Assembly (NCBI RefSeq): GCF_003722355.1
Contig: NZ_QWDD01000001.1
Location: 1,364,001-1,428,000, forward strand
DNA: 64,000 nucleotides
DNA from: Methylocystis hirsuta
Lineage (GTDB): Bacteria > Pseudomonadota > Alphaproteobacteria > Rhizobiales > Beijerinckiaceae
Direction of reading: 5' to 3'
Position 1 is the stretch's first letter, and each line of letters begins with the position of its first letter. Under the pieces are notes generated by a model. It was not told the origin of the DNA. It did not search any database and saw only the letters and a program-made list of their open reading frames with translations. A program made the position numbers and the translations under genes. Positions 42,014 through 62,941 of this stretch are shown one piece after another.

Positions 42014-42041
42014 TTGACATAGCGCGACAAGCGCCTAGCCT
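42014..42041 (+). promoter_or_regulatory. Rightward promoter with operator (42017-42032)
   Basis: TTGACA at 42014-42019, 16-base spacer, TAGCCT at 42036-42041. The sequence ACATAGCGCGACAAGC starting in the -35 matches the dispersed palindrome at 10 of 14 positions. It precedes the gene at 42104 by 60 bases. Confidence 0.5.
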
Positions 42042-42103
42042 TTCAACGTGCGGTCTATCGATCGTGCCGCCCCACTAGGGCGAAGGCCACTAAGGGAGAA
42101 AAC

Positions 42104-42493
42104 ATGCCACGCAATCCGCAATCCGCGTCGCCTTTGGCCGTTGGCCTAGGGCGGGCTTGCGCGCCGGGCGACCGTGCGAACAACACACGCGCCCAACATT
42201 TCATGAGTCGCCAACATATGAAGGGACTCCTAGCTATCCCGCTTGCGCTGCATATCAGCGCCGCGAGCGCGCAACCGTGCGAGCTAATCGTGATCTATTG
42301 CAAACCCATCGCCGCCAAGGCGATTAACGCAATGCGCGACGGACGCTCCAAAGATCACGTGATCTCGACAGGGCTTTACAATCACGCTTGCGTCGCGTCG
42401 CCCGCGTCCGTCAAGCGCGCCGACATAAAGCCTGTGTGGGCTGCGCCGGCGCGCATCTACTGGACGCAATACGCGCCGCGAGGCGTCGAGTAA
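42104..42493 (+). CDS. Unknown protein with internal signal-like segment
   Basis: A 129-residue protein. The ATG at 42104 has a strong AAGGGAG 5 bases upstream. From residue 39 a signal-peptide-like stretch is seen (MKGLLAIPLALHISAASAQP with an ASA-QP cleavage pattern), followed by a mature part with three Cys. Either the first 38 residues precede an internal membrane anchor, or a second start at codon 39 is used. Family not recognised. Confidence 0.6.
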   Translation: MPRNPQSASPLAVGLGRACAPGDRANNTRAQHFMSRQHMKGLLAIPLALHISAASAQPCELIVIYCKPIAAKAINAMRDGRSKDHVISTGLYNHACVASPASVKRADIKPVWAAPARIYWTQYAPRGVE

Positions 42494-42597
42494 TGCGCGC
42501 CCTGGAAAATATCGTCTTTGCCGCCGGCGCGCTTGTCGCGTCTGCAATCCTTGTCGGCGCGCCGCTCGCGCTCGCCTTATGGAGTGTTCGCCAATGA
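42493..42597 (+). CDS. Very small membrane protein (34 residues)
   Basis: Starts in a TAATG overlap with the previous gene and ends in an ATGA overlap with the next. The product MRALENIVFAAGALVASAIL continues hydrophobic and ends in WSVRQ, one membrane helix. Tight coupling on both sides argues that it is a real gene. Confidence 0.6.
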   Translation: MRALENIVFAAGALVASAILVGAPLALALWSVRQ

Positions 42598-42797
42598 GCA
42601 AGAGTCATCTGAATCGCCTTATCTCGACGACGCGCGGCGCCCTTGTGCGCTATCGCGCGCAACTCCCTGCCACGGTCTATGCAAGCGCCGCGTCGGCGCT
42701 CGCGCTAGCCTCGCAACAGGCCAAAGCCGGCGACGTTAGTTCGGCCGTCGCAACCCTCGAAACAGCGCGCGGTCTACTCGACTCTTTCGCCGCATAA
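42594..42797 (+). CDS. Small helical protein
   Basis: A 67-residue Ala-rich helical protein (MSKSHLNRLISTTRGALVRY...). Start overlaps the previous stop (ATGA). Function unknown; last of a three-gene coupled unit. Confidence 0.6.
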   Translation: MSKSHLNRLISTTRGALVRYRAQLPATVYASAASALALASQQAKAGDVSSAVATLETARGLLDSFAA

Positions 42798-42812
42798 AAC
42801 GTCATGACATGG
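42797..42812. promoter_or_regulatory. Dispersed palindromic operator, site at 42.8 kb
   Basis: AAACGTCATGACATGG matches ACATGTC-NN-GACATGT at 11 of 14 fixed positions. It lies 43 bases before the ATG of the 502-residue protein gene. Confidence 0.5.
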
Positions 42813-42854
42813 GTGCAACAAGCGCCGCAAACCGCAACAAAAGGAACGACTCAA

Positions 42855-44363
42855 ATGTCCTATGGCCAATACAGCCCCAACGGTAAAACTCGCGACGATT
42901 GCCTGCTATCATCGGCGCCCGCGTCATATGTCGCGCAGCGTCGGCAGACATTCGGAACACATGCGCAGACCGCGCATGTTTGGGCGCAAAACGATGTTCG
43001 CTATGGGCGCTCGAATGACGGCCGCATTTTCTTTGAGAACGGAGTCATTTATTCGCACGGTCGACACTTCGCCATCGCCGAGATAACCGACGCGTTATGG
43101 AACGGTCGCCGCGTCATCCTTTGGAACGATGAGACACATTCCATAAGCACAAGCTCGCATCAATCTTACGCGCGCAGCGCCATCAAACACGACGAGTCAA
43201 TCGTTATTCCAGTGCAAGGATTCTCGCACGGCCACATCGACGACGAAAACACAAAAACGACGCTCGAATATCTCGCACGCCACGAAGACTCCGCGCCTTG
43301 CATGAATCGCGGCTATAACGAGAACACATACGACGACGCGCTAGCGGCCTTCGGAAGCGTTTACGCCCCAAAACTCAAATTACACCTCGCCGCCAACCGC
43401 ATTGCGTTCCGCGATCGCGTGAAGCGTGCGGACGAAGCGCGCGCGAAGAAAGAAGCGGCCGATAAACTGGCGCGCCTAAAGCGCGCGTTCCGCCTCGCCA
43501 AGCCCGAACAATACCACGTAGCGCAGCCGGGCGATAACGCCGATCTACACGCCGTCGCGGCTCAGGCCGCACATGCGGCCGAAAGCGCCATCCGCAATAT
43601 CGAACACAACCTAACGGAAGCGCGCCGCGCTCGCGCAGCGTTCAAGGCCGCAGGGTTACCGCTCTATCGGTCGCGCGCGTCCGCATATGTCAAATACTGG
43701 CAGGCGAAGCGCGACGCATGGGCCGTGCTCGCGACAGACTTGCGCAACCAAGAGCAACACGCGTCAGATGTTGCGGACGTTAAACAGTATGCAGAGCAGC
43801 CGCTAGAAAAGGCCGCTACGCAAGGTTGCATCTTGCCGCTTGTTTACGAAAAAGCGTTGCGCCTAGAAATGCCAGACGAAGCGGCCCAAATTCTGCGCGC
43901 CTATCAACTAAATCATTATTGGGGCGATCTAGACTCGACGTTCCGCACGCTGAATCCAGGCGCGTGGGATATCGTATATAACCGCCGTGCGGCGCGGACC
44001 GCGCGCGGGCGTTTCACGCCTGAAAAATGGCTGGCGGGCGAGGGCAACGCCTATCAATCTTTCGACGCAACGCTTGTTCGCCGCAAGGATGACAGATTGC
44101 AGACGACGAAAGGCGCGGAAGCTCCTTGGTCGCACGCGGTTGCGATATTCTTGCGCGCGCAGCGTTGCCGGAACGAGTCCACGTCATGGCGCCCTAATGG
44201 CGAGCGTTTCCGCGCCGGCCATTTCGAGTTAGATCGAATTGACGCATCGGGCGGAATCAATATCGGCTGCCATCGTATTGAATTTTCCGAGATGTTGCGA
44301 CTTGCGGTCAAAGAAGTCCCGCAACTCGTAACCGCTCAATATCCCTTGCCGGCCGTGATCTAA
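42855..44363 (+). CDS. Large unknown protein of the rightward island
   Basis: A 502-residue protein, MSYGQYSPNGKTRDDCLLSS at the start. The N-terminal ~170 residues are mixed alpha/beta with several His (YSHGRHFAIAEITDALWNGR, FSHGHIDDEN). The middle is a long Ala/Arg/Lys helix (residues ~200-330), and the C-terminal ~150 residues are mixed. AAGGAA lies before the ATG at 42855. No catalytic motif I recognise. Shares its N-terminal style (display of a tunable DISNVTRQ-like field) with the next gene only weakly. Possibly an anti-defence or DNA-modification accessory protein; this is a guess. Confidence 0.65.
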   Translation: MSYGQYSPNGKTRDDCLLSSAPASYVAQRRQTFGTHAQTAHVWAQNDVRYGRSNDGRIFFENGVIYSHGRHFAIAEITDALWNGRRVILWNDETHSISTSSHQSYARSAIKHDESIVIPVQGFSHGHIDDENTKTTLEYLARHEDSAPCMNRGYNENTYDDALAAFGSVYAPKLKLHLAANRIAFRDRVKRADEARAKKEAADKLARLKRAFRLAKPEQYHVAQPGDNADLHAVAAQAAHAAESAIRNIEHNLTEARRARAAFKAAGLPLYRSRASAYVKYWQAKRDAWAVLATDLRNQEQHASDVADVKQYAEQPLEKAATQGCILPLVYEKALRLEMPDEAAQILRAYQLNHYWGDLDSTFRTLNPGAWDIVYNRRAARTARGRFTPEKWLAGEGNAYQSFDATLVRRKDDRLQTTKGAEAPWSHAVAIFLRAQRCRNESTSWRPNGERFRAGHFELDRIDASGGINIGCHRIEFSEMLRLAVKEVPQLVTAQYPLPAVI

Positions 44364-44380
44364 TTCGAGGAGTCAAACCA

Positions 44381-45211
44381 ATGAACGTTGAACTGTTGCG
44401 CCTCTATAAAGACACACGACACATGAGCGACCGCTGCGCCTCTATATCGGCGCGGCGCGCATATATTTTTGCCAGTGACGCCCTTGCGAAAGGCAAAAAA
44501 GGTTATGTGAACGATTGGCCTTGGCAACGTGGCGCCAACAATGTCACGCGCCAAGAAAAGAAACATCCGGGCGACAATTACGCTTGGATCGAAAACACGG
44601 AGTCGGCCGGTTTGCGCTTCGTCGACCATGCCGACAAAATTTGTGACGGCATTCGCCACCAAGGCTGGTATACGGACGACGACGGCATAAGCGGCGAAGT
44701 CCTGCGCGGCGCCGTTTGGCAGCTACCCGCGCGACGCGGCGTCGCCCGCTACATCGCGGGTTACAAAGACCCAAACAATAAAGGCGCGGCCTTCGTCGAC
44801 CTAGACATAATATCTTTCGCGCCCGCCGCCTCGTTGTCTCGTTTAGGCGACCTCGCAAACGAATCCGCCAAACACGACGCGGCGCGCCGCGCAGATTCGA
44901 TTGCCGAGCGCAATGCGAAGCGCGAGCGTGATTACAACGCCGAGTTTCATGCGGGCTCGGAATGGTCAGACATGGCGGAACAAATTACCCGCATCAGACA
45001 GGAAACGCTCGCCTTGTTGCGAGAGTTGCGCCCCCTGCGCCATGCCGCGACCATAGAAGTGCCAACCATCTGCAAACATCTGCGCCGCGATATTGAAAGC
45101 GGCCTAGCGGAGATTCACAAACTCCGGCGCAGACGCGCCGAGATATTCGACGAATGGAGCCACACGGACGGTTTTGCGGAGTTTCTACCCCGGAACGAAT
45201 CCGCACGTTGA
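44381..45211 (+). CDS. Unknown protein with central globular part and C-terminal coiled coil
   Basis: A 276-residue protein. Residues ~1-150 are mixed (WPWQRGANNVTRQEKKHPGD; GWYTDDDGISGEVLRGAVWQ; RGVARYIAGYKDPNNKGAAF), then helices to the end (IRQETLALLRELRPLRHAAT). GAGGAG precedes the ATG. The part around the GWYTDDDGISGEVLRG motif may be a binding domain, but the family is not recognised. Confidence 0.65.
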   Translation: MNVELLRLYKDTRHMSDRCASISARRAYIFASDALAKGKKGYVNDWPWQRGANNVTRQEKKHPGDNYAWIENTESAGLRFVDHADKICDGIRHQGWYTDDDGISGEVLRGAVWQLPARRGVARYIAGYKDPNNKGAAFVDLDIISFAPAASLSRLGDLANESAKHDAARRADSIAERNAKRERDYNAEFHAGSEWSDMAEQITRIRQETLALLRELRPLRHAATIEVPTICKHLRRDIESGLAEIHKLRRRRAEIFDEWSHTDGFAEFLPRNESAR

Positions 45212-45246
45212 CACGTTCTAAGATTGTCTGGTATGTTGCGACATGT
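45208..45246 (+). promoter_or_regulatory. Promoter with operator over the -10
   Basis: TTGACA at 45208-45213, 18-base spacer, TATGTT at 45232-45237. The operator GTATGTTGCGACATGT (45231-45246) covers the -10 and start region and has a complete GACATGT half. It serves the gene at 45288. Confidence 0.65.
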
Positions 45247-45287
45247 GTGCGCAATGCGCCACATGTCAAAAAAAAGGAAAAGAGCCA

Positions 45288-45500
45288 ATGAAAAAGCGCT
45301 ATCACACTCTCGCGGAATATCTGCCGGCGCTCGAACGCTGGACTCCGCAGTTTGGCGACTATGACCGCAAAACGGTTAAGTCTGAACTGGACTACATGCG
45401 CGAGCAAGGCGTGAAGGAGAAGCATCTAAAAATCGTTAGCTCCGCCGGAACGCAAGAGGCCATCAATTCCGTCTGCGCCTCTATCCCACGTCCCGCGTAA
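45288..45500 (+). CDS. Small basic protein of the rightward island
   Basis: A 70-residue protein, MKKRYHTLAEYLPALERWTP, helical and charged. The start at 45288 has AGGAAAAGAG upstream; the longer frame from 45243 has no ribosome site and crosses the operator. Function unknown. Confidence 0.6.
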   Translation: MKKRYHTLAEYLPALERWTPQFGDYDRKTVKSELDYMREQGVKEKHLKIVSSAGTQEAINSVCASIPRPA

Positions 45501-45509
45501 GGTCGCCCC

Positions 45510-45525
45510 AAATGTCGTGACATGC
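45510..45525. promoter_or_regulatory. Dispersed palindromic operator, site at 45.5 kb
   Basis: AAATGTCGTGACATGC matches 12 of 14 fixed positions. It lies between the 70-residue protein gene and the small frame at 45569. No good -35/-10 pair is obvious here. Confidence 0.5.
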
Positions 45526-45568
45526 GCGCAGAATGGCGCGCATGTTGAATCAGAGCGGAGCGCCGCAA

Positions 45569-45661
45569 ATGTTCAAGCTCGCAACACTAATCGCCTCGAA
45601 TGCCGAATCGCTCGCGGATTTTGTCGCGTGGCAGGCAATCCTTAGAGGCGCGCTTCTATAG
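45569..45661 (+). CDS. Possible 30-residue peptide
   Basis: MFKLATLIASNAESLADFVA and ten further residues, after a GGAG-containing leader (GAGCGGAGCGCC). It ends directly at a strong terminator. Short and unconfirmed. Confidence 0.35.
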   Translation: MFKLATLIASNAESLADFVAWQAILRGALL

Positions 45662-45662
45662 G

Positions 45663-45701
45663 AAAAAGCCCGCCCGTCATGTCTCGACGCGCGGGCTTTT
45701 T
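45663..45701 (+). terminator. Strong intrinsic terminator
   Basis: AAAAAGCCCGC and GCGGGCTTTTT arms around a 17-base loop, with runs of A and T suitable for both directions. It divides the island into two transcription units. Confidence 0.8.
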
Positions 45702-45734
45702 CATATGCAAACGCGAACCAGGAAGGAGTCACAG

Positions 45735-46052
45735 ATGGTAGATGAATCGTTGCTTGATCGTGTCAAGAACGCCGCGCCGGGATTCTACACAGAACGCGAC
45801 GGCGGTTTTTGGTATATCGTCACACCCGACCACGCCGACCGGATCGGCGAATATTTTGTGTCGCGCGACACGGCGCGACTGTTCTTGTTGGTCGCCGCAG
45901 GCGCCGAGCCTATGCCAGATCATTGGCGGGTTATTGATGCGTCGCGACTATCTGCGATGGTCGAGGTCGGCAATTCTGTCATACCGACCTTGTGGCGTCG
46001 ACCGTTGGAACAGCACTTCCCAACATTCGCCGCGACCATTTGGCACGGGTAG
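45735..46052 (+). CDS. Unknown 105-residue protein
   Basis: MVDESLLDRVKNAAPGFYTE at the start, mixed alpha/beta. GGAAGGAG lies 8 bases before the ATG at 45735. Followed after 10 bases by the next gene with its own AGGAG, so they are cotranscribed. Function unknown. Confidence 0.65.
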   Translation: MVDESLLDRVKNAAPGFYTERDGGFWYIVTPDHADRIGEYFVSRDTARLFLLVAAGAEPMPDHWRVIDASRLSAMVEVGNSVIPTLWRRPLEQHFPTFAATIWHG

Positions 46053-46062
46053 GAGTCGCGCC

Positions 46063-46317
46063 ATGCCGAAAACCGTTCGCATCATGCAAAGCCTGTATTT
46101 CGCGCTCGACTCAATCGGCAATGGTTGGGCCTATGCGTTGCACAAATTCAAGCCGGAGCGCCGCTACGTTTGGCTTCAGGATGACGACGCGACACAGTTC
46201 CGCAAGGATCTGGACTCGGTCGAAAAGAAGTGGCCTCATGAGGCGTCCGACTTCATTCTTTCACGTTTATGGGTCGACTTTGAATATGGGCAAATTTCCC
46301 GGCCAGATGCAGATTAA
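46063..46317 (+). CDS. Unknown 84-residue protein
   Basis: MPKTVRIMQSLYFALDSIGN at the start; aromatic and charged, with DDDATQFRKDLDSVEKKWPH. AGGAG precedes the ATG. Function unknown. Confidence 0.62.
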   Translation: MPKTVRIMQSLYFALDSIGNGWAYALHKFKPERRYVWLQDDDATQFRKDLDSVEKKWPHEASDFILSRLWVDFEYGQISRPDAD

Positions 46318-46323
46318 AACATC

Positions 46324-46352
46324 TTGAACATGACGCGCCAGGACTCTAAGTT
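46324..46352 (+). promoter_or_regulatory. Promoter TTGAAC-N17-TAAGTT
   Basis: -35 at 46324-46329 and -10 at 46347-46352. An ACATCTTGAACATGA sequence overlaps the -35 and is only loosely like the dispersed operator. It serves the gene at 46395. Confidence 0.45.
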
Positions 46353-46394
46353 CTGGCGCATTACCGCTTCGAGAAACCGTTAAGAGGCCAGACC

Positions 46395-46589
46395 ATGCAA
46401 CTGCATATTACAATCGACGACGGCAAGAGCGTCGCGGGCGCGGACGCCTGGACGCAACGTCAAGAGCTTGCCAACATCTTGACGGCAGTCGTCGCCGATC
46501 TGTTGGACGAAGGCATTGCGCCGGGCGACAAGAAGCCGTTGCGCGACCGCAACGGTCACACTGTCGGAACGGCTCACCTCGCCGAGTAG
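46395..46589 (+). CDS. Unknown 64-residue protein
   Basis: MQLHITIDDGKSVAGADAWT at the start; a beta strand followed by helices (LANILTAVVADLLDEG). GAGG stands before the ATG. Last supported gene of the rightward island. Confidence 0.6.
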   Translation: MQLHITIDDGKSVAGADAWTQRQELANILTAVVADLLDEGIAPGDKKPLRDRNGHTVGTAHLAE

Positions 46590-46710
46590 TCCCGCGCGCC
46601 GATCCGGGCGCGCTCCGCTTGAAACCTAAAACGAAAGGAATTCGCTATCGATCGCACATGACGCGCCGTCCGGCGCTTTTCCTGTCGCGCTCGATCGAGC
46701 GCCGACACTG

Positions 46711-46740
46711 AAAAAAGCCGGGCCATTGCGCCCGGCTTTT
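46711..46740 (+). terminator. Intrinsic terminator at the end of the rightward island
   Basis: AAAAAAGCCGGGC-CATTGC-GCCCGGCTTTT. Effective on the + strand and possibly on both. Confidence 0.8.
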
Positions 46741-47177
46741 CTTTTGGCCTTTTCGCTTGCTCGCGCCGATCTCGGCATGATTCGCAAGTCGATGGCGCTC
46801 GCGCCGATCTCGGCGCCGGAAACTGCGAAGCGATTCGCGGGTTGCTCGCGCTCGCGCGCAAGCTGGAATGACAGGCGCGCCAGATCGCAGGCGACGCGCC
46901 GGAAGCATGGGAGTCCTAGTGAAAAAGACGCTTGAACGTTGTTCTATGCCCTTGTTCGAGCTGCGACGCTACTACGGTAGCGCAAGCGTTCCAATATGGC
47001 CTGCGCCCGGTTTCTGTCCCGTGGCGCGCAACAGCTTTTTCTCCGGCGCCGCTCGCCGCTGCGCACGGGCGCCGCCAGGGCGATCTAGCAGCACGCCGCG
47101 TCGGCGCGCCTATATCGCAATGTGTTGTTTACAAAATGTGTTCTCTGCGCGACGGGGGCGCTCGCATGTCAAATGTA

Positions 47178-47189
47178 ATGTTATAACAT
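47178..47189. promoter_or_regulatory. 12-bp palindrome ATGTTATAACAT
   Basis: Shares the core GTTATAAC with the 15-bp inverted repeat at 41859-41916; the sites bracket the rightward island. Probable binding site of the same regulator. Confidence 0.55.
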
Positions 47190-47207
47190 CACGTGTTGCC
47201 CGACGTG

Positions 47208-47290
47208 ATGAACGCCGTTCATTGTGCAACGCACATATCGAAAAACAAACTACATCGTTCAGGTCGCTTTTGACCAATGAACGACGTTCA
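47208..47290. promoter_or_regulatory. Two TGAACG-N-CGTTCA palindromes
   Basis: ATGAACGCCGTTCAT at 47208-47222 and TGAACGACGTTCA at 47278-47290, seven helical turns apart. A related GAACGTTGTTC is at 41828-41840 and 46933-46943. A dimeric regulator or spaced protein complex could bind. Confidence 0.5.
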
Positions 47291-47544
47291 GGCGGAAGCT
47301 CGATCCCCGCGTGCGCAAGATAAACGCAAAAAAATTCTTTTTTGCGCGCGCGGGCGAGCGCGGCCCGGAGGTCATCAACGTGCAGAGGCTTCCCCGCTTG
47401 ATCGCCCCACGTCTCTCTCCGGGCCGCCTGAAGCGGTCATTTGCCTGTCGCGAAACGCAATCAGATGACCGCGAGCAGCGTTCCCCGCCGCTCCAACATT
47501 CGCTGCCCAAGAGACAACGCCTACAACGAATGTTGTCAGTAAAG

Positions 47545-47614
47545 TTGGTCAGCACGAGCCGATGCCTTTGAGTGCAAAAATGCTCGTGATGTGTGTCCAT
47601 CGTGTGCTGACCAA
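47545..47614. repeat. Nested inverted repeats
   Basis: TTGGTCAGCAC (47545-47555) pairs perfectly with GTGCTGACCAA (47604-47614), while CACGAGC (47553-47559) pairs with GCTCGTG (47582-47588). The two pairings share CAC, so they are alternative or partly exclusive structures. Confidence 0.6.
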
Positions 47615-48585: not shown

Positions 48586-48597
48586 TGAATTGGCCTC

Positions 48598-48774: not shown

Positions 48775-48788
48775 ATTTGACGACCCTC

Positions 48789-48817
48789 AAAAAGAAAAGC
48801 CGCCGAATCACGGCGGC
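48789..48817 (-). terminator. Intrinsic terminator in the leader of the 58-residue gene
   Basis: Read leftward: GCCGCCG-TGATT-CGGCGGC followed by TTTTCTTTTT. It lies between the promoter at 48835-48863 and the gene, so it may act as an attenuator. Confidence 0.75.
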
Positions 48818-50049: not shown

Positions 50050-50078
50050 AACATCCCACATGTCCCGACAATGGTCAA
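50050..50078 (-). promoter_or_regulatory. Leftward promoter with operator (50058-50073)
   Basis: TTGACC (50078-50073), 17-base spacer, GATGTT (50055-50050). The operator ACATGTCCCGACAATG fills the spacer and matches 11 of 14 positions. Confidence 0.6.
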
Positions 50079-50606
50079 CCTCAATTTTTACCCTTCGGCC
50101 CGGTGCATCCCGAAGCGAGTGTGGAGCACGCAGGAGCGCGCCGAGCACCAAGCGACGGCGCCAGCGAGTGTAGTGTGTGCCCTTTAGGGCACACACTCGC
50201 GGCGCACTAGGATTCTCATAGCAGTTCGATCGAGAAGCGTCCGCTAGTTCAATACCTTAGCTGCCAGAAAACACCAAAATCACACAACATTGCATAGTGG
50301 GGCCGTAGCAATCCCGTAGCAACTTCGTCGCGCGGCCTAGAACGTTGATTTATATGGTCGTAGCGTTTGCGCCTGCTATTCGCCACAATTCCCATAGCAA
50401 TGCTCATAGCGCCGTAGCGCCAAGAACTGCTACGGCCTTATAAATCAATGCCGTAGCGCGCTTTACATGCTCGTCGTTCATAGCGCTATGAAGTGCTACG
50501 GCCTTATAAATCAACGACGTAGCGCACGTCAAAACGTCTCGTGACCTGGCTGTGTGGCAAATCGCTCGTAGCGCTACGAACTGCTACGGTCTTTAAGATC
50601 AATGGT
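50079..50606. other. Gene-free repeat region, candidate replication origin
   Basis: No gene is supported. It starts with a 10-bp GTGTGTGCCC/GGGCACACAC hairpin (50173-50196) and then carries the repeat array described separately. Confidence 0.55.
50295..50606. repeat. Iteron-like array: GTAGCGC units and 22-bp AT-rich elements
   Basis: Four copies of GCTACGGCCTTATAAATCAACG-type elements (about 50342-50364 inverted, 50428-50450, 50496-50516, 50583-50604 more degenerate). Between them run (C/A)(G/A)TAGCGC motifs in both orientations at 50297, 50306, 50358, 50393, 50405, 50412, 50450, 50479, 50517 and 50567, some as palindromes such as CATAGCGCTATG and CGTAGCGCTACG. Dense short repeats plus AT-rich tracts are typical of iteron origins or partition sites. 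Confidence 0.7.
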
Positions 50607-50938
50607 TTACGTTCTCAAAACCGGCCCGATCGGACCGCTTTGGCCCCATCTCCCTGCACGTGTGCAAGTCTGCTCAACGGAGCGCGAGAGCCGGCTTTTC
50701 GGCCCCCAATTGGTCGAGGCAGCATGTCGGGAGATGGGGGTTGACTGGCGCGACGATCGGCCGTAAGCGGGGGTGACTTGCAGGGTTTGTGCGAGCAAGC
50801 GCGGGCTTCTGTCAACCAACCGAAAGGTTGGTTCGAGGTGTTCTAAGGAACCCTTGGGTAAAAGGGCGGCGCCGCATAAACTAAGTGCGTGCTGGTTTTG
50901 CGGCGCCGTCTACACCTTCTAGCGCAAAGAAAAATACG
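50607..50938. promoter_or_regulatory. Leader region of the HicB-like gene
   Basis: Contains an 11-bp inverted repeat CCCCATCTCCC (50644-50654)/GGGAGATGGGG (50729-50739), an operator GCATGTCGGGAGATGG (50722-50737, 11 of 14), a rightward promoter TTGACT (50741-50746)-N17-TAAGCG (50764-50769), and an 8-bp hairpin with GAAA loop (50814-50833). No HicA-like toxin frame is visible. Confidence 0.55.
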
Positions 50939-51193: not shown

Positions 51194-51388
51194 TCAGGCG
51201 AAGGATTCTCCGCGCAAGAATGCCTCGATCGCCGGGCCTGACCAGCGACGCCGCCCAGGCAAATTCAGCGGCTTTGGCAGCAGACCCTTTTTGGCCCACA
51301 TGCTGATGGTGTCTGGGTCGACCTTGAAGTGCGCGGCGAGATCGGCCGCGGTGTAGACCGGCGGCAGCGGCGGCTTCTCATTGCTCAT
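51194..51388 (-). CDS. AlpA-like HTH protein (4th of four)
   Basis: A 64-residue protein with a MerR-type winged HTH: VYTAADLAAHFKVDPDTISM followed by WAKKGLLPKPLNLPGRRRW. AlpA/excisionase-type proteins regulate prophage excision or transcription. Its start overlaps the next upstream gene by 11 bases. Confidence 0.78.
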   Translation of the reverse strand: MSNEKPPLPPVYTAADLAAHFKVDPDTISMWAKKGLLPKPLNLPGRRRWSGPAIEAFLRGESFA

Positions 51389-51581
51389 GGGGCACTCCTT
51401 TCAGCTTCTCTATCGTCGAGCGACGCCAGCGCGGGTTGCCCGGCAGATTGACCGGATCGGGGAATTTGCCTGCCTTGCGCCAGCGCCATATCGTCGGCAA
51501 GGAGACATTGAGTTCCGCAGCCACCATAGGCGTGGTTAGCAGGGGATCGAATGCAGGCTGTTCGTCGGAAGGTTTCGTCAT
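51378..51581 (-). CDS. AlpA-like HTH protein (3rd of four)
   Basis: A 67-residue protein: LLTTPMVAAELNVSLPTIWR followed by WRKAGKFPDPVNLPGNPRWRR, closely parallel to its neighbour at 51194-51388. Same HTH class. Directly adjacent to the upstream gene. Confidence 0.78.
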   Translation of the reverse strand: MTKPSDEQPAFDPLLTTPMVAAELNVSLPTIWRWRKAGKFPDPVNLPGNPRWRRSTIEKLKGVPHEQ

Positions 51582-51803
51582 TCAGACGCTCCACAGGTTG
51601 CGGCGCACACGCCCGAGTTTCGGTTTGCAGGACGGCAGGCCGTCCTTCAACACGCGCTCAATCTCTGTGAGAGCGATGAACCGTCGGCCGCCTATGCGCA
51701 CGTCTTTCAGGGCTCCCGAATTGAGGTGCTTGAAGATCGTCGAGCGCCCGATGCGCAACTCCTGACGAGCTTCGTCTAAGGTGAGCAGGTTTGGGTGAGT
51801 CAC
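51582..51803 (-). CDS. Excisionase-type HTH protein (2nd of four)
   Basis: A 73-residue protein from the GTG at 51803, which overlaps the preceding TGA (GTGA). LLTLDEARQELRIGRSTIFK followed by HLNSGALKDVRIGGRRFI is the HTH_17/excisionase pattern. The longer frame upstream lies in the preceding gene and is shadow. Confidence 0.78.
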   Translation of the reverse strand: MTHPNLLTLDEARQELRIGRSTIFKHLNSGALKDVRIGGRRFIALTEIERVLKDGLPSCKPKLGRVRRNLWSV

Positions 51804-52042
51804 GGCCGATCTCCGTTGCTTGTGAGGACTCCGGCTTTCGACGCGAGCCAAAGCTGAAGGTCGGAAAGCAGGAAGGCGCGGCGCTTCTGACTGATCTGTA
51901 GCGCCTTGGGAAAATCGCCGCCATGGCGCGCTCGACGATCAATCTCCGGCACGGAGAGGGAGGTGATTCGTGCGGCTTCTTTGATGGAGACAGCGCGGTC
52001 GTTAGGCCCGAAACGCTGGATGGGCGGGGTGAAATCCGTCAT
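51800..52042 (-). CDS. AlpA-like HTH protein (1st of four)
   Basis: An 80-residue protein: AVSIKEAARITSLSVPEIDR followed by RARHGGDFPKALQISQKRRAF. Same winged-HTH class as the three genes after it. First gene of the unit and preceded by a good promoter. Confidence 0.78.
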   Translation of the reverse strand: MTDFTPPIQRFGPNDRAVSIKEAARITSLSVPEIDRRARHGGDFPKALQISQKRRAFLLSDLQLWLASKAGVLTSNGDRP

Positions 52043-52621: not shown

Positions 52622-52795
52622 TCATGCCGCATTCTTTTTGTGCGGTGTGTTCTGAACATATTGCAACAGTGCGCTGCGCACGACATCCGTGACTCGGCGC
52701 TCTTGGGTTGCCGCCAAGGACTCCAACTCCTTGCGTAGCGTGATGGAGACTCGCACGCACAGGTTTGCGGTTGCGGCTTTCTTTGTTTTGCTCAT
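52622..52795 (-). CDS. Ribbon-helix-helix DNA-binding protein
   Basis: A 57-residue protein. LCVRVSITLRKELESLAATQ followed by ERRVTDVVRSALLQYV is the RHH pattern (one strand, two helices). Its ATG overlaps the ParB-like stop (ATGA). A ParB-like and RHH pair with no ParA suggests regulation rather than classical partition. Confidence 0.75.
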   Translation of the reverse strand: MSKTKKAATANLCVRVSITLRKELESLAATQERRVTDVVRSALLQYVQNTPHKKNAA

Positions 52796-53682
52796 ATTGA
52801 TTCGTCCTCCGTTTCGTAGAACCGCTCGATGATAGGCCTGATGCGCAGCTTGGCCTCGTTGGGCGCGGCATTCCACGTGTGAAGGAGTTTGAGGTAATCG
52901 GCTTCCTGCTCCTTTCGTTCTGTCGGTCGCGGCGTTTCGTTGGTATGTCGCGGCTTGCCGGCAGGCGCGCCGAATTTGGTGGCGAGGCGGCGGGCGTCCT
53001 TGGCGCCTTCTTGCATTTTTAGTTTCGCGAAGGCCGGTATGGCTTCGCGTTGGCGCTCTTTTGGAACTCGCGCCAACTGCGCGAGTTTGACGCGCCCGTC
53101 GACTCCCGCCTGGACGGCTTCCTCGACGATCTTCGGGTCCATCTTCGCGAAGCGCACGCTCTCGCTCAAAGATATCCTGTCGATGCCGAGTTCTCGGGCG
53201 CTGTCGCGGAGGCCGGTGCGCAGATGGGTGTTGCCCCCGCGTCCTTGATCATTCCGCCCGGATGAATATTCATCCGGGCGGGTTTTTGTCGCATCACGCA
53301 TTCGTATCTCGTGAAGCTCGGCCTCGCGAAACATGCGCTCCGCGGCCGTGAGGTCGCGCCGGGCGACGTTCTCCCACGCGTCTGCGCGCTCCTTGCTGAC
53401 GGACTGCCATCCGGGCTCGGAAAACGTCAGGCGCAACGCCGGCACCGCCGTGAGGCCTGCGCGCTTCGCTGCTTCAAGCCGGTGTCGTCCGGCGATAAGG
53501 CAGGTCATTCCTAGTTCAGGCGTATAAACCAGCACACGGGATGTGAATCCTTGCTCGCGAATGCTTTGCGCCAGCAAACGCACGGTGTCGGAATCTAGGG
53601 GCTCGTCCTTGCGAGGATCATGGAGCCCTCTTACAGGCACCATGAGTTCGTCGCGTCTGGTTACGAAGGCGGGATGATTCAT
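52792..53682 (-). CDS. ParB-like protein
   Basis: A 296-residue protein. The N-terminal ParB/Srx-type domain has MVPVRGLHDPRKDEPLDSDT, LAQSIREQGFTSRVLVYT, and CLIAGRHRLEAAKRAG (the conserved GxRR-like box, here GRHR). The middle carries a predicted HTH (RDSARELGIDRISLSESVRF), then VKLAQLARVPKERQREAI. It may bind phage DNA for segregation or control; some phage members are nucleases. Start at 53682 overlaps the preceding stop. Confidence 0.82.
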   Translation of the reverse strand: MNHPAFVTRRDELMVPVRGLHDPRKDEPLDSDTVRLLAQSIREQGFTSRVLVYTPELGMTCLIAGRHRLEAAKRAGLTAVPALRLTFSEPGWQSVSKERADAWENVARRDLTAAERMFREAELHEIRMRDATKTRPDEYSSGRNDQGRGGNTHLRTGLRDSARELGIDRISLSESVRFAKMDPKIVEEAVQAGVDGRVKLAQLARVPKERQREAIPAFAKLKMQEGAKDARRLATKFGAPAGKPRHTNETPRPTERKEQEADYLKLLHTWNAAPNEAKLRIRPIIERFYETEDESI

Positions 53683-54878: not shown

Positions 54879-54918
54879 GTCAGCACCTCTCATGGTTGTT
54901 GTGACTTGCGATATCTGC

Positions 54919-54947
54919 ACGTTATGACATGTCGCATTATGAGTCAA
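54919..54947 (-). promoter_or_regulatory. Leftward promoter with operator (54927-54942)
   Basis: TTGACT (54947-54942), 17-base spacer, TAACGT (54924-54919). ACATGTCGCATTATGA in the spacer keeps one full half site (10 of 14). Confidence 0.6.
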
Positions 54948-56421: not shown

Positions 56422-56439
56422 CTACATGTCAAGACATGT
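56404..56439 (-). promoter_or_regulatory. Leftward promoter with perfect operator (56424-56439)
   Basis: ACATGTCAAGACATGT, a perfect 14-of-14 match and best site in the window. Leftward -35 TTGACA (56432-56427) starts inside it, 17-base spacer, weak -10 TTCACA (56409-56404). Confidence 0.65.
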
Positions 56440-56652
56440 TTCGCGCGCCATGCGCAGGGATCGTTGCGCGCGCAAAGCCTTTGCCTGACGGACAAGCTCC
56501 TGGCGAAGGCACGACTCGTCCTCGTGATTGCTGCGTTCGCGGGCGATGTCCGCGCCGAACGCGAGCGTCGTCAGTTCGCAAAGGCTGTTGCCGTGCGCTT
56601 CCGCGCCGCCGGGCCGGATCGACGGAAAAGTGGTGGGTTGACGAAATCTCAT
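56422..56652 (-). CDS. Small unknown protein
   Basis: A 76-residue Arg/Ala/Glu-rich protein, MRFRQPTTFPSIRPGGAEAH, start overlapping the previous stop (ATGA) with GGGAGAAG upstream. Its 3' end overlaps the perfect operator. Function unknown. Confidence 0.55.
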   Translation of the reverse strand: MRFRQPTTFPSIRPGGAEAHGNSLCELTTLAFGADIARERSNHEDESCLRQELVRQAKALRAQRSLRMARETCLDM

Positions 56653-56813
56653 TGCACTTCTCCCGCTTTGTGGGCGGCAAGCAGGCCTTTGTAGGTCGCA
56701 TAAAGCCACTGCCATTGGATATTGGCGTCCAGTTGGTCCCAAGCGTTAAGGGGAAAGAAATCGTTGAACGACGCCTTTGCGGCGGCGAGCAGCACGTCTT
56801 TAGATATGATCAC
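56649..56813 (-). CDS. Small unknown protein (54 residues)
   Basis: GTG start at 56813, 4 bases after the primase-helicase stop, with AGGAG 7 bases upstream. MIISKDVLLAAAKASFNDFF and a Trp-rich helix (WDQLDANIQWQWLYATYKGL). Coupled to both neighbours. Below the 60-residue cut-off. Confidence 0.6.
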   Translation of the reverse strand: MIISKDVLLAAAKASFNDFFPLNAWDQLDANIQWQWLYATYKGLLAAHKAGEVQ

Positions 56814-56817
56814 GTCC

Positions 56818-59121: not shown

Positions 59122-59153
59122 GCAGGATGTTTTCTCTCGCTAACAGAAAAAGA

Positions 59154-59189
59154 ACATGGGGACGATAAAGCCCCCATGTCGCAACATTT
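59154..59189 (-). terminator. Terminator overlapping an operator-like site
   Basis: Read leftward: ACATGGGG...CCCCATGT hairpin followed by TCTTTTTCTG, before the primase-helicase gene. CCATGTCGCAACATTT (59174-59189) matches the dispersed palindrome at 11 of 14 positions. Confidence 0.65.
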
Positions 59190-59194
59190 AGCCG

Positions 59195-59557
59195 TTAATG
59201 ACCGAGCGTTTCGTCGGCAGAGTCAAAGTCGAAGCGGACCTTGGCCGCTTCGTCGGTCGGTGCAACCGGCTTCGAGTTGCGGATCAGCCGATCCAGGCGT
59301 GTGCGCACCATGTCAAGCGTCATCCGCAACGCCGCAACCATGTTCTGCGCGTGCGCGAACTCGGTGTGCGGGATGTATTTGCCGGTGAGCTTGCCGTCTT
59401 TCAACAAGGCGACCTGTGCGTGAAAATCACGCAGATGTGTCGACAGGAGAACGACGGCGCACTCATGATCTTCGACCGTTTCGAGATCGCCGACGCGCAG
59501 ATCGGTGCCGTGAATAGGCAGATCGGCGACGAGGTCTTTCGCGAAAAGCCGGCTCAT
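59195..59557 (-). CDS. Unknown 120-residue protein
   Basis: MSRLFAKDLVADLPIHGTDL at the start; a beta-rich front and a long helix (AHAQNMVAALRMTLDMVRTR). ATGA overlap with the upstream gene. Possibly a replication accessory. Confidence 0.6.
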   Translation of the reverse strand: MSRLFAKDLVADLPIHGTDLRVGDLETVEDHECAVVLLSTHLRDFHAQVALLKDGKLTGKYIPHTEFAHAQNMVAALRMTLDMVRTRLDRLIRNSKPVAPTDEAAKVRFDFDSADETLGH

Positions 59558-60246
59558 GCCTTGCACCCCATATGGGCGACGACGTTGATCATATCGTGAT
59601 GGGGGCCGCGCGTCGCCGTGCAAGGCACGCCAAGCACCGTCTCGTAAAAGCGTCGGACTTCTTCCAACTGCTTGTCGACAGGCGGCCGCCAGTTGCGCGC
59701 GGATTCGAGGATGTCGCCCAAGGTGAGCGGCTTCGATTGGTCCTCGTCAACTGTCGACGTTACGGTCGGAGTCGGCTTTGGCGGCGGCATGAACAGGTCG
59801 GCGAGCAAGCTCGAAAGGAAAGCGTCGACGGCGTTCGTCGCCTTGCCCCACTGCTGCGGAGGCGAGAAAGCCTTCACTTCGTTGCGGCCGAACGGCGCCA
59901 CGAGCGGGTCGATCAGCGCAGGCCCGCCAAACGCCTTCATATACGGATCGTTGTTGGCGGCCGGCGCGGCCGTGTCGGCTTCGATGCGTTCCGCTTCCTC
60001 GATATGCGCCTCGACAGTCTCTTTCAACTTGCGAAGGAACGGCGTCGACATGCAGCCAAGGCTGGCCACAAATTCATGGACGGAGTTCTCGAAGCGGCCC
60101 AAAGAGTCGCTCTGCACGTCCCGCGAGGACAATATGGTCGTCGCCATGAGCGGCGCAAAGACGTTGTCGGCAGCAACGAGCATGTCGGCCGCGGCGCGAA
60201 GTCGGTCGTTCGTCAAGTCGTCGAGTTCTTTCACGCTATTCTGCAT
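59554..60246 (-). CDS. Unknown 230-residue protein
   Basis: MQNSVKELDDLTNDRLRAAA at the start; helical N-terminal 110 residues, Pro-rich linker (MPPPKPTPTVTST), C-terminal EEVRRFYETVLGVPCTATRG. Overlaps the upstream gene by 11 bases. Function unknown. Confidence 0.6.
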   Translation of the reverse strand: MQNSVKELDDLTNDRLRAAADMLVAADNVFAPLMATTILSSRDVQSDSLGRFENSVHEFVASLGCMSTPFLRKLKETVEAHIEEAERIEADTAAPAANNDPYMKAFGGPALIDPLVAPFGRNEVKAFSPPQQWGKATNAVDAFLSSLLADLFMPPPKPTPTVTSTVDEDQSKPLTLGDILESARNWRPPVDKQLEEVRRFYETVLGVPCTATRGPHHDMINVVAHMGCKA

Positions 60247-60703
60247 TCGTTGACTCCTCGGGGTTCTGACCGACTTCGCCGGTCTGGGCATTCGGCGCCG
60301 TGGTTGGCGCGGAATCGGTGTTGCGCAACTTATCGATCTGGCGATCGAGGCGCAGAAGATCGGCCGCGTAATAGCGCGCGCAGGCGTTGCGTTGGGCGAT
60401 AGCGGCGTCAAGTTGTGACGTGTAATGTTGGGCTTTCGGCCGCTTGGCGTAGAGCAAAGCGTGCTCGAAAGCCGGTCCACAACCCACCACCACGTAAACA
60501 ACAAAAGCATCGACACACGGTTGACCGAAACGTGTCTTCTGATCACTCGCCTTCAGCGCCGCGTCGAAATCCATTTGGGGCGGATCGTCATAGCGATCGA
60601 GGACGAAAGAGTTCTTCAGCGCGAGTTCGTGCCTCGCTTCGCGTAACGCTCTCTTGGTGCGCTCGTGAGCTTTTTGCTCTGGCGACTTGTCTTCTGTTGG
60701 CAT
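60236..60703 (-). CDS. Unknown 155-residue protein
   Basis: MPTEDKSPEQKAHERTKRAL at the start; charged helices around a hydrophobic middle (VDAFVVYVVVGCGPAFEHAL). AAGGAG 7 bases before the ATG at 60703. Function unknown. Confidence 0.6.
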   Translation of the reverse strand: MPTEDKSPEQKAHERTKRALREARHELALKNSFVLDRYDDPPQMDFDAALKASDQKTRFGQPCVDAFVVYVVVGCGPAFEHALLYAKRPKAQHYTSQLDAAIAQRNACARYYAADLLRLDRQIDKLRNTDSAPTTAPNAQTGEVGQNPEESTNAE

Positions 60704-60983
60704 TCTCACACTCCTTGATGTGGTGGTTCATTCCTTTTGCGGCGATGCGATAGGCTTTTCGTCGGTGGTCCATGCTTATTTCTTCGACGAACCCGATCTC
60801 GACGAGGTGGGCGGCGGCGATCGGGTCTGCGACAATTCGCCAACTGTCAGGCAAAAGCCGCTTGTGACGAATCAGGTCGTCGAAAACGGCACGGACCGGG
60901 CGGGGGAGGGTATCATTCACCGGCGTTAAGCCTTTGTATTTACGAATAAAGCCGGGGACGGCCCACGGCCTGATGCGCTGCAT
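60588..60983 (-). CDS. Unknown protein, first gene of the leftward early run
   Basis: A 131-residue frame from the ATG at 60983: WAVPGFIRKYKGLTPVNDTL, then a winged-helix-like middle (LIRHKRLLPDSWRIVADPIA; LVEIGFVEEISMDHRRKAYR). The last 39 codons overlap the next gene by 116 bases. The start is uncertain because the predicted promoter is very close; a GTG at 61043 is possible. Confidence 0.5.
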   Translation of the reverse strand: MQRIRPWAVPGFIRKYKGLTPVNDTLPRPVRAVFDDLIRHKRLLPDSWRIVADPIAAAHLVEIGFVEEISMDHRRKAYRIAAKGMNHHIKECENANRRQVARAKSSRAHQESVTRSEARTRAEELFRPRSL

Positions 60984-61027
60984 GTCATGCCACGTAAGGC
61001 ACCGTGAGTCAACATGTCCCGACAACT
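60984..61027 (-). promoter_or_regulatory. Leftward early promoter with operator (61012-61027)
   Basis: -35 TTGACT (61012-61007) with 17-base spacer to a weak CATGAC. The operator ACATGTCCCGACAACT (12 of 14) overlaps the -35. Confidence 0.55.
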
Positions 61028-61058
61028 TCGCGCCTTTAAGCACGTATTTTTAGAATGC

Positions 61059-61096
61059 TTGACCCATGCGGTTGTGTATGACATGTCTGATAATGG
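61059..61096 (+). promoter_or_regulatory. Rightward early promoter region with operator (61081-61096)
   Basis: TTGACC at 61059-61064 with 17-base spacer to CATGTC; the operator ACATGTCTGATAATGG covers the -10 and start (10 of 14). Facing the leftward site at 61012-61027, this forms a divergent double-operator switch about 70 bp apart. Confidence 0.5.
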
Positions 61097-61132
61097 ATTC
61101 ACAACTCATGACATTTGGCAGGGGGCTAATCG

Positions 61133-61600
61133 ATGCCGGCAATATTGGGGGTTGATCTAGGCACTAAATGCGGTTGGGCGCATTTGAACACAAACAGTCA
61201 AGGTTCGGCTATAATTTCGGGTGTGTGGGATTGTTCAATCCGGTCTGGTGTCGATTCTCCCGCAATACGCTTTCTGAAATTCGAAAAGAATTTGGATGGT
61301 GTTTTATCTTTATCACCTGACATGGTGTTTTACGAGATTGTGCGCGCACACCGCGGAGTCAAAGCGGCGCACATGTATGGCGCATTCCAACAAAAACTGT
61401 TCGAACGTTGCGACTATTTCGGCGTGCCTTATGAAGGCGTCAGCGTTCAAGCCATCAAGAAGTTTGCGACAGGAAAAGGTAACGCCCCAAAAGAGGATGT
61501 GATCGCAGCCGTCCGTGTGTGGGGGTTCCATCCGAAAGACGACAACGAAGCAGACGCTATTGCGCTCGCGCGTCTTGGATGGGAGCAATATGGCTCCTAA
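61133..61600 (+). CDS. RuvC-like Holliday junction resolvase
   Basis: A 155-residue protein with the RNase H-fold catalytic residues: Asp8 in ILGVDLGTKCGW, Glu68 in MVFYEIVRAHRG, and Asp137/Asp141 in DDNEADAIALA. Phage RuvC-like enzymes resolve recombination junctions before packaging. AGGGGG 7 bases before the ATG. First gene of the rightward unit. Confidence 0.87.
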   Translation: MPAILGVDLGTKCGWAHLNTNSQGSAIISGVWDCSIRSGVDSPAIRFLKFEKNLDGVLSLSPDMVFYEIVRAHRGVKAAHMYGAFQQKLFERCDYFGVPYEGVSVQAIKKFATGKGNAPKEDVIAAVRVWGFHPKDDNEADAIALARLGWEQYGS

Positions 61601-62915
61601 AATTCGGCGCCCGCTTAAACCTTATCAGATCGAAGATGGTCAACACGTAGCGAAGCGCAAAGCAACGCTCGTGGCGCACCAGCCGCGTGTTGGAAAAACA
61701 AACATCGCGATACACGCGGCTGATCTGCGGCTGGCTGATCTGGTTATCGTCATCTGTCCGCCGAACGTGCGTCACAACTGGCGCCAGGCTATCAAAGAGT
61801 TCCGCAAAGGCAGGTGGCACGCGATAGTTTGCGGCGACAACTTCGCCTCGAAACTGTTGCCGCGCATTAAGATGTTGCGCAAGACAAGGGCTTTCAAACA
61901 TGTCGTCCTGGTGCTCGACGAATCGCATCGGTTTAAGAACCGTGCGGCGGCGCGCACGCGGGCGGTTTATGGGCCAGAATGCACTGCAATAGGTGGTTTG
62001 GTTGAATTGGCCGATCAAGTTGTGTTGCTTACCGGCACGCCGCTGCCGAATGATCCTGTCGAGCTTTATCCGATGCTGCGCTCTTGTGCGCCGGAACTGA
62101 TCATAGGCGACAACGGCCGCCCGTTGTCGAAATCACGCTTCGAGAATCGATATTGCAAGGTAAAGTGGACGCCGTTCGGAACAAAGACGGTTGGGGGCAA
62201 ACGCTACGGCGAATTGAAGGCGCTCCTGATGGAGAGCGGCTTCTGCATTCGTCGCACCCGCAAGGAGGTGTTCGGGCGCGATCTGCAACCACCGACAAAC
62301 GTGTATGTGCAGGCGGCGAAGGCGTTTGGTTCCGAACTGTCGGCGCTCGAAGCGAGCCCCGAGGGACAACGAATCAAGGAAGCGTTGCAGCGTGGCGGCT
62401 TGGTTGCGCTCGCGAAGCTGGAAAAGGGCTCCGCGGCGCGGCTACGAAAGCTATATGGGCTCGCTAAGGTGGCCGATCTCTCGTCGCTGATTGCGGACGA
62501 GTTGGAGGAAGAACCGGACAGCAAAGTGGTGGTCGGCTTCTGGCACACAGATGTCGGCGACGCTTATGCGCAAGCGCTCCGCCGGTTCCATCCGCTTGTG
62601 TTCGACGGCCGGGTGTCGAGCGACCGCAAGGTGCGGATGAATCGGCAATTCCTCGACAACAAGAAGCATCGTGTGATCCTAGGGCAGATCGGCGCAGCCG
62701 GCGTCGGGCTCGACTTCAGCGCCGCGCGAAACGTTGTGTTGGCCGAATGGAGCTACGTCGGCGTGGACAACGAGCAGTTCTGCGCGCGTATCTTCAACAT
62801 GAACGTCGACGAACCCGGCTTCATCCGGTTCGCGGTTCTGCCCGGCTCAATGGATGCGGAAATCGCCCAGGAGGCAAAACGCAAGCTGGAAATAGCCGCC
62901 AAAATTTTTGATTGA
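61590..62915 (+). CDS. SNF2-type helicase
   Basis: A 441-residue protein. Walker A is degenerate but present (QPRVGKTNIAI, GKT 35-37). Further motifs: VIVICPPNVRHNW, DESH box (110-113), LLTGTPLPND, and C-terminal VILGQIGAAGVGLDF with ...DNEQFCARIF as motif VI. It is the small phage SNF2-like translocase type. Overlaps the RuvC-like gene by 11 bases, so they are coupled. Confidence 0.87.
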   Translation: MAPKIRRPLKPYQIEDGQHVAKRKATLVAHQPRVGKTNIAIHAADLRLADLVIVICPPNVRHNWRQAIKEFRKGRWHAIVCGDNFASKLLPRIKMLRKTRAFKHVVLVLDESHRFKNRAAARTRAVYGPECTAIGGLVELADQVVLLTGTPLPNDPVELYPMLRSCAPELIIGDNGRPLSKSRFENRYCKVKWTPFGTKTVGGKRYGELKALLMESGFCIRRTRKEVFGRDLQPPTNVYVQAAKAFGSELSALEASPEGQRIKEALQRGGLVALAKLEKGSAARLRKLYGLAKVADLSSLIADELEEEPDSKVVVGFWHTDVGDAYAQALRRFHPLVFDGRVSSDRKVRMNRQFLDNKKHRVILGQIGAAGVGLDFSAARNVVLAEWSYVGVDNEQFCARIFNMNVDEPGFIRFAVLPGSMDAEIAQEAKRKLEIAAKIFD

Positions 62916-62941
62916 CATGTCGGGACATGATGATGTAGAAG
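62913..62941 (+). promoter_or_regulatory. Rightward promoter with operator (62916-62931)
   Basis: TTGACA (62913-62918), 17-base spacer, GTAGAA (62936-62941). ACATGTCGGGACATGA matches 13 of 14 positions and begins within the -35. Confidence 0.65.

Follow-up and report, generated by a model that had tools for sequence, protein, structure and literature searches.

The largest contig of the Methylocystis hirsuta CSC1 genome (4,213,043 bases in 4 contigs) was analyzed over positions 1364001-1428000, a stretch of 64,000 bases referred to here as the window. It carries a contractile-tailed prophage (a tail sheath gene is present) of ~67 kb, ~14 kb of which extends beyond the window, and throughout this prophage a 16-bp near-palindrome with the consensus [A/C][C/A]ATGTY-RY-RACAT[G/T][T/G] recurs. 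From what is seen directly (the sites themselves, how strongly the prophage is enriched in them, where they lie and which way they face, and the hairpins that accompany some of them) we infer repression and roadblock: by analogy with mycobacteriophage L5, one phage-encoded dimeric repressor probably binds the sites, which would serve as operators at promoters and as stoperator-like sites inside operons.

A 16-bp near-palindrome is dispersed across the prophage

With up to 3 mismatches allowed, ACATGTC-NN-GACATGT, which an earlier sequence-only reading of the window had described as a motif dispersed across the prophage, occurred 17 times in the window where shuffles predicted 1.53, and 0 of 100 shuffles reached 17. 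Over the whole prophage (counted as 10909-78200, window plus flank; coordinates above 64000 are window-extended, and subtracting 64000 gives the position in L005) there were 25 matches against 3.36 expected from 18 matches in 360 kb of host DNA. The host background of 360,000 bp consisted of 18 pieces, two of which (L008 and L009) were fetched because of their matches.

A symmetric matrix iterated from the 12 sites listed in that reading (with 54917 and 62915, the registers of the pattern match, in place of its 54927 and 62916) converged on 23 sites (Table 1). Ten of the twelve stayed in this set with leave-one-out scores of 12.4-22.1 bits, while 42017 (5.9 bits) and 61081 (5.4 bits) proved weak. 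On leave-one-out, 21 of the 23 sites scored at least 13 bits, compared to 0.75 expected per prophage length (359,730 host positions). Piece L008 was excluded from that expectation because it had been fetched for its matches, and its 5 sites of at least 13 bits lie outside the 0.75. The clearest series of sites lies past the end of the window, in 14 kb of DNA that had been unavailable to the sequence-only reading: applied to this unseen DNA (64001-78150, 14.15 kb), the 12-site matrix yielded 9 sites of at least 12 bits, where the host background (L008 included) predicts 0.6. For the late region (10909-42000) the corresponding numbers were 5 found and 1.31 expected. More than one copy of TGTYRYRACATGGAG was present in only this genome of the 397 in the order (4 matches, all in the prophage and all on one strand).

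Host repeats of the GCTTGTCGCGAC type at 12041-16275 of L008 are motif-like, lie outside the prophage and are probably unrelated. Tried as a second motif, GAACGNNGTTC was set aside (29 occurrences against 19.2 expected, a count reached by 4 of 100 shuffles).

Most sites lie between co-directional genes, with a bias in orientation

Genes were called with our own codon-usage script, and four were set by hand for the junction counts (74499-75053, 45570-45662, 61133-61600 and 38884-39183). Non-coding DNA was touched by 20 of the 23 sites, against 12.3% at random (P = 7.5e-16). The earlier description placed every site but 56424 outside coding sequence. In the gene calls, three sites of the 23 (12338, 30400 and 77567) are wholly coding, and 56424 is itself non-coding, though a 90-amino-acid open reading frame (56429-56701, minus strand) would end inside it.

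Of 90 same-strand junctions, half (45) had gaps measuring 14 bp or more; a site of at least 10.8 bits was present in 20 of them, the next best scores being 8.0 and then 5.4. These 20 sites are the 23-site list plus 11581, 73942 and 74473, minus 12338, 30400, 50058, 50722, 61012 and 77567. When an equal 60 bp was scanned upstream of each downstream start, a site of at least 10 bits was found at 15 of the 45 long-gap junctions and at 0 of the 45 with shorter gaps; by region, 14 of 27 long-gap junctions from 42000 on carried a site, as against 1 of 18 in the late region. Sites are found most commonly between genes of the same strand, often fused to the Shine-Dalgarno sequence or trailed by a hairpin.

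The distance from site to start codon fell into two clusters, one of 10-13 nt (64777, 66668, 69586, 69952, 70827, 74473 and 76642) and one of 38-52 nt (28046, 33276, 42797, 45231, 45510, 54917, 59174, 62915 and 66070, with 50058 at 46), and four sites fell elsewhere: 61101 (16 nt), 73942 (32), 11581 (78) and 56424 (318, or shorter if the uncalled small reading frame is real).

Orientation of the 20 junction sites by their flanking genes revealed a preference for a strong downstream half. Over the 5-bp core the downstream half was stronger in 13 sites, weaker in 1 and tied in 6 (P = 0.0018); over 7-bp halves, whose outer bases are influenced by the Shine-Dalgarno sequence, the counts were 15, 4 and 1 (P = 0.019). 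Since the site is near-palindromic, this orientation is a bias and not a fixed property. For the analyses that follow we used an oriented set of 23 sites, consisting of the 23-site list without 12338, 30400 and 77567 and with 39193, 73942 and 74473; totals of 22 leave out 39193. Positions 7 and 10 were complementary in 13 of 22 sites compared to 14.3 by permutation, so the half-sites do not covary. An RNA-stem reading of the palindrome is ruled out by this absence, and we therefore read it as two half-sites for a protein dimer.

Three classes of sites

The seven sites located 10-13 nt before a start codon form class 1. Six of them read ...RACATGGAG and merge with the Shine-Dalgarno sequence, the seventh, 76642, reading GACATGTGGG. 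All seven are found in the rightward early operon, whose genes around them serve DNA methylation, nucleotide metabolism and replication.

Class 2 comprises 28046, 33276, 45231, 45510 and 59174, at which a 28-nt fold with 11-bp arms and a 6-nt loop begins in the downstream half-site and so overlaps the site; 45231 has a bulge and a shorter loop. Perfect stems of at least 6 bp starting in the downstream half were present at 5 of the 23 oriented sites, compared to 3.4% of random non-coding positions. The five hairpins align without gaps, with 94.5% of cells paired (83.7% in shuffles) and 4 of 11 pairs changed on both sides, and their covariation score, derived from only five sequences, was reached by 0 of 500 shuffles. 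Folding z-scores for six sequences ranged from -2.8 to -6.3. Site 69952 differs in that its stem (12 bp, with a 6-nt loop) ends in the upstream half. The composite of site and hairpin with exact outer arms had 4 copies in this genome, none of them outside the prophage (28046 deviates by 2), and one copy each in 2 of 238 other genomes of the family, where by eye the inner stems are not fully complementary. Hairpins per se are not specific to the prophage (31 compared to 19.3 per 67 kb of host DNA), and under this stricter rule 4 of the 31 overlap a site. An 11-6-11 hairpin also recalls the core site of a tyrosine recombinase, a reading that we set aside because the inner arms are unconserved in sequence.

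In class 3 (50058, 62915, 66070 and 73942), TTGAC begins 3-7 bp upstream of the site, which thereby occupies the promoter spacer. This arrangement was present at 4 of 22 oriented sites, compared to 1.2% of random non-coding positions (P = 1.3e-4). The claim that most sites overlap a TTGAC promoter was nevertheless too strong: 11 of the 23 oriented sites had a TTGAC beginning somewhere from 45 bp upstream to 24 bp downstream of the site start, at mixed offsets, and a consistent promoter placement is confined to the minority in class 3. The central dinucleotide also varies with class, being purine-pyrimidine in 12 of 12 sites of classes 1 and 2 and in 4 of 10 others (P = 0.003); all five GG-centered sites lie outside classes 1 and 2.

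Proposed mechanism

Because sites in promoters, sites in short gaps and a correlated orientation together make up the layout of L5, we favor a block of initiation at some places and of elongation at most. At a minority of sites the repressor would occupy the promoter spacer or the -10 and prevent initiation, as at an operator. At most sites it would sit between co-directional genes, near the next ribosome-binding site, and stop or slow a passing RNA polymerase; such stoperator-like sites would keep leaky transcription from traversing the long operons of the lysogen. A strong half-site facing downstream is as expected if blocking is direction-dependent. The sequence-only reading had placed most early and accessory operons under one regulator, and a single site family found on both strands ahead of many such genes agrees with this, with promoters explaining only part of the arrangement.

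If true, this proposal would account for the silence of long operons in a 67-kb prophage and would extend stoperator-like control inside operons beyond actinobacteriophages, with a dimeric near-palindromic site. The roadblock strategy would then stand apart from cluster A and its unusual monomeric repressor, with rules that could be tested in a proteobacterial system.

The operator-hairpin composite is novel and the least explained part of the system. At the five class 2 sites, the downstream half would also provide the 5' arm of a transcript hairpin, which may reinforce the block or shield the processed RNA of an active gene. One repressor half-site would in this way double as an arm of an RNA hairpin of constant size, giving a dual DNA/RNA device that is repeated between genes of several operons and has a simpler, Shine-Dalgarno-fused version in the early operon. 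That the same 34 bases form a protein roadblock with the gene off and an RNA structure with the gene on (for protection, processing or terminator-like pausing) strikes us as rather doubtful; if it were so, the composite would represent a new class of operon-wide control element. The fixed operator-hairpin units would offer a defined object for asking whether DNA roadblock and RNA structure cooperate.

Candidate regulators

Judged from its sequence matches and gene neighborhood, the XRE/Cro-like protein P0001 is the most likely binder. Its profile matches are to HTH_3 (E = 0.014, below the Pfam cut-off) and phrog_2967 (3.2e-5), and against PDB it matched the CI chains 3zhi, 3zhm, 5a7l and 6tri at E = 0.16-0.33, which we take to be those of phage TP901-1. 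In the gene calls, the P0001 and integrase genes, both on the minus strand, become neighbors when the phage is circular, with only the attachment site between them. A similar arrangement exists in Rhizobium phage RHph_N65, which had the top DNA polymerase bit score among the 20 matches listed and in which a "cro-like repressor" 25% identical to P0001 adjoins the integrase. In tblastn, P0001 matched the repressors of RHph_N65 (E = 7e-4) and Mae-Yong1326-1 (E = 8e-6); the repressor gene is upstream of the integrase gene in RHph_N65 and likewise in Mae-Yong1326-1, there with one small gene between.

Table 1 Features of the prophage and coordinates of the sites.
Feature	Coordinates	Strand	Remarks
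attL core	10895..10908	+	3' end of tRNA-Cys; identical 14 bases at extended coordinate 78136-78149 (L005:14136-14149)
XRE/Cro-like protein P0001, favored candidate	10990..11502	-	170 amino acids; weak helix-turn-helix (HTH) matches; integrase neighbor
Weaker site upstream of XRE gene	11581..11596	-	11.6 bits; second candidate at 11663, 9.0 bits
Composite, site 28046 and hairpin	28025..28061	-	between tail sheath gene and next gene
Composite, site 33276 and hairpin	33255..33291	-	after major capsid gene
Site	42797..42812	+	42 nt ahead of gene at 42855
Composite	45231..45267	+	site on possible -10, TTGACA 23 bp upstream; hairpin
Composite	45510..45546	+	site and hairpin
Promoter-spacer site, GG center	50058..50073	-	TTGACC begins 5 bp upstream
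Site, GG center	50722..50737	not assigned	14.6 bits (leave-one-out 13.3)
Four consecutive small HTH_17/AlpA/excisionase-like proteins, alternative binders	51194..52042	-	each with such a match
Arc-like ribbon-helix-helix protein, alternative binder	52622..52795	-	
ParB_N-domain protein, alternative binder	52792..53682	-	Pfam ParB_N 4.6e-7
Site on possible -10	54917..54932	-	TTGACT 15 bp upstream; 38 nt before start (54878) of next same-strand gene
Site	56424..56439	-	sole perfect palindrome
Composite, site 59174 and hairpin	59153..59189	-	ahead of primase-helicase gene
Divergent early control region	60980..61116	not assigned	61012 and 61101 (both in 23-site set); weaker matches 60980, 61081
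Promoter-spacer site, GG center	62915..62930	+	TTGACA begins 3 bp upstream
Excisionase-like protein, possible binder	76670		
23-site set, first 12	12338, 28046, 30400, 33276, 42797, 45231, 45510, 50058, 50722, 54917, 56424, 59174		converged matrix
23-site set, remainder	61012, 61101, 62915, 64777, 66070, 66668, 69586, 69952, 70827, 76642, 77567		converged matrix

Alternative explanations

Several observations weigh against control by one dimeric repressor of this kind. The HTH matches of P0001 are weak, as are the sites above its gene, and several further DNA-binding proteins are candidates (Table 1). Three sites of the set fall entirely within coding sequence, and neither a fixed Shine-Dalgarno spacing nor hairpins are necessary for a plain roadblock. 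The searches described below found no close relative of the phage that would allow sites and regulator to be compared across a family, and the distant relatives lack the dispersed set, their excess of the motif being small or absent: RHph_N65 had 3 matches of at least 13 bits in 48.7 kb compared to 1.15 expected, the Mae-Yong1326-1 phage had 0 compared to 1.16 expected, and a prophage region in genome G071 (primase 32% identical) had 0 in 40 kb. One RHph_N65 match (14364) stands at the promoter of its repressor gene.

The Shine-Dalgarno spacing and the hairpins are what one would look for in a start-linked element acting mainly in translation or on the mRNA, with repeat and hairpins working in RNA by the ribosome-binding site in the manner of the SAS/ESAS repeats. 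The seven class 1 sites, most of them merged with the Shine-Dalgarno sequence, and the five hairpins of constant 28-nt size, with their compensating changes, covariation score and folding z-scores, all favor such an element. Four sites, however, occupy the stretch separating the -35 from the -10 of likely promoters and would be missing from transcripts started there; the palindrome itself lacks RNA-type covariation; and the SAS consensus occurs in the window about as often as chance predicts (1 match compared to 0.99 expected). We consider this explanation unlikely. Quite unlikely, in our view, is that the ParB_N protein binds the sites as a plasmid-like global regulator and partition protein. 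KorB, the precedent in RK2, has many operators. It is reported to be a ParB protein required for both partition and transcriptional repression (PMC5577506). The ParB_N match here is accompanied by matches to several ParB-like phage families. With an integrase and a chromosomal location at a tRNA gene, the phage should have no need of partition; the ParB_N gene falls within the leftward early operon in the gene calls; and the proteins scanned, which covered part of the genes, included no ParA.

An activator site or -10-like element within phage-specific promoters, switching genes on, would suit the two preferred distances at which sites precede genes and the overlap of the motif with a possible -10 at 45231 and 54917. 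It is difficult to reconcile with the 12 of 23 oriented sites that lack TTGAC in the stretch examined, including all seven at 10-13 nt, a spacing too short for a normal promoter and leader, and we give it little credence. That the sites are chance palindromes or an artefact of base composition is scarcely credible. Repeats of the host's own GTCGCGAC type do score in L008 and L009, and single matches are present in other genomes, but this explanation is refuted by the shuffles, the host DNA and the unseen 14 kb, and among the 397 genomes of the order TGTYRYRACATGGAG is multiple only here.

Comparison with known systems

We return to the proposed repressor with dispersed operators and stoperator-like sites. 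In L5, repressor sites in promoters are termed operators and those in short intergenic spaces stoperators (PMC9283540). The prophage resembles L5 in having more than 20 sites over the genome (here 23 predicted sites in ~67 kb), in their location in promoters (here 4 of 22 oriented sites) and short intergenic gaps (here 20 of 45 same-strand gaps of at least 14 bp), and in an orientation correlated with transcription. It differs in the host phylum, in the hairpins on five sites, and in the site itself, which in L5 is 13 bp, asymmetric and bound by a monomer, and here is a near-palindrome of 16 bp whose downstream half is the stronger. The L5 consensus had 2 matches in the window compared to 1.99 expected. 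The prophage would work like a stoperator system, and we do not claim membership of the L5 family. L5, put forward by the sequence-only reading as the closest known design, remains closest in layout, although dispersed repressor sites also occur outside actinobacteria, where P1 C1 and SPbeta MrpR are precedents.

The C1 repressor of P1 has 22 dispersed operators (PMC8546580). Like the prophage, with its putative regulator, P1 combines many dispersed sites with a proteobacterial host; its operator differs in being a 17-bp asymmetric sequence, ATTGCTCTAATAAATTT, which with up to 3 mismatches had 0 matches in the window. We know of no report of P1 operators fused to Shine-Dalgarno sequences inside operons, no search for one having been made. 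In the Bacillus prophage SPbeta, MrpR is associated with about ten dispersed SPBRE elements and its binding peaks all lie within the prophage (PMC10516654). The likeness is of dispersed repeated elements under one repressor, here a putative one; SPBRE, by contrast, is 15 bp long and located in promoter regions, and MrpR has a tyrosine-recombinase-like fold. Cluster K mycobacteriophages carry SAS/ESAS repeats by start codons in the non-structural half of the genome, about half of them with inverted repeats (PMC3203893 and PMC12699233). These share with the present sites the link to start codons and the partial association with inverted repeats. They differ in sequence and in hairpin design (17-bp imperfect inverted repeats with a variable spacer, upstream of the element, compared to 11-bp arms with a 6-nt loop overlapping it), and the prophage additionally has promoter sites and a palindrome. 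The 13-bp SAS sequence GGGATAGGAGCCC, with up to 2 mismatches allowed, was no commoner in the window than expected. Among the papers listed for Methylocystis together with prophage, or with bacteriophage and repressor, no title or abstract shown described a system of this kind.

Distant relatives of the phage

Only distant relatives were found, at ~21-41% identity among the matches listed. Primase was searched in 199 family genomes and in the collections genome_contigs, viral_contigs and phages; DNA polymerase in phages, genome_contigs and viral_contigs; the single-stranded DNA-binding protein in 397 order genomes and viral_contigs; the capsid protein in 39 genus genomes; and the XRE protein in 298 family and 385 class genomes, phages, plasmids and viral_contigs. 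Terminase and tail sheath were searched in phages only, and the motif scans did not take in these phages. None of 47 loci found through the polymerase had more than one match of at least 14 bits with the first matrix, compared to 22 in the prophage. RHph_N65 resembles the prophage in the Cro-like repressor gene upstream of the integrase gene and in relatives of the SNF2 helicase and the polymerase, and differs in having its own repeat, TTTTGTCC, at 13518, 14377 and 14402 only.

In viral_contigs, the Shine-Dalgarno-fused form was found in 27 stretches with one pattern match each, none of which had more than one match of at least 14 bits, and the composite pattern in 6 viral stretches. Two contigs, L127 and L128, have repeats within a coding frame that look origin-like, and were set aside. 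Another, L129 (IMGVR_UViG_3300009751_000010), has four genes in common with this phage (terminase at 33%, portal, primase and a further one) and has 3 matches of at least 13 bits in 14.7 kb compared to 0.35 expected. It also carries the 12-mer ATGTTATAACAT upstream of its small terminase gene, where the prophage has two near-copies. Because the contig was picked by pattern, its link to the sites of this phage is suggestive only. At 14190-14236 of L129, the palindromes TTTTGTC-CG-GACATGC and GCATGTC-AT-GACAAAA face each other, and the TTTTGTCC half seen in this contig recurs at the repressor promoter of RHph_N65.

Other observations

Palindromes of the GAACG-NN-GTTC and ATGTTATAACAT types are present in the prophage at 41828-41918, upstream of the terminase operon, and at 46933-47290, after the 42-46 kb operon. 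A rightward operon at 42855-45211 adjoins the leftward late genes; two of its genes match the phage families of unknown function phrog_7247 and phrog_8188 and have no Pfam family at E = 0.01. The ~450 bp of non-coding DNA at 50172-50620 contains several CTACGGCCTTATAAATCAA-type repeats flanked, by eye, by GTAGCG and may be an origin, a partition site or a second regulatory region. Outside the prophage, an EcpR1 (Atu_C6) small RNA gene lies at 2031-2137 (97 bits).

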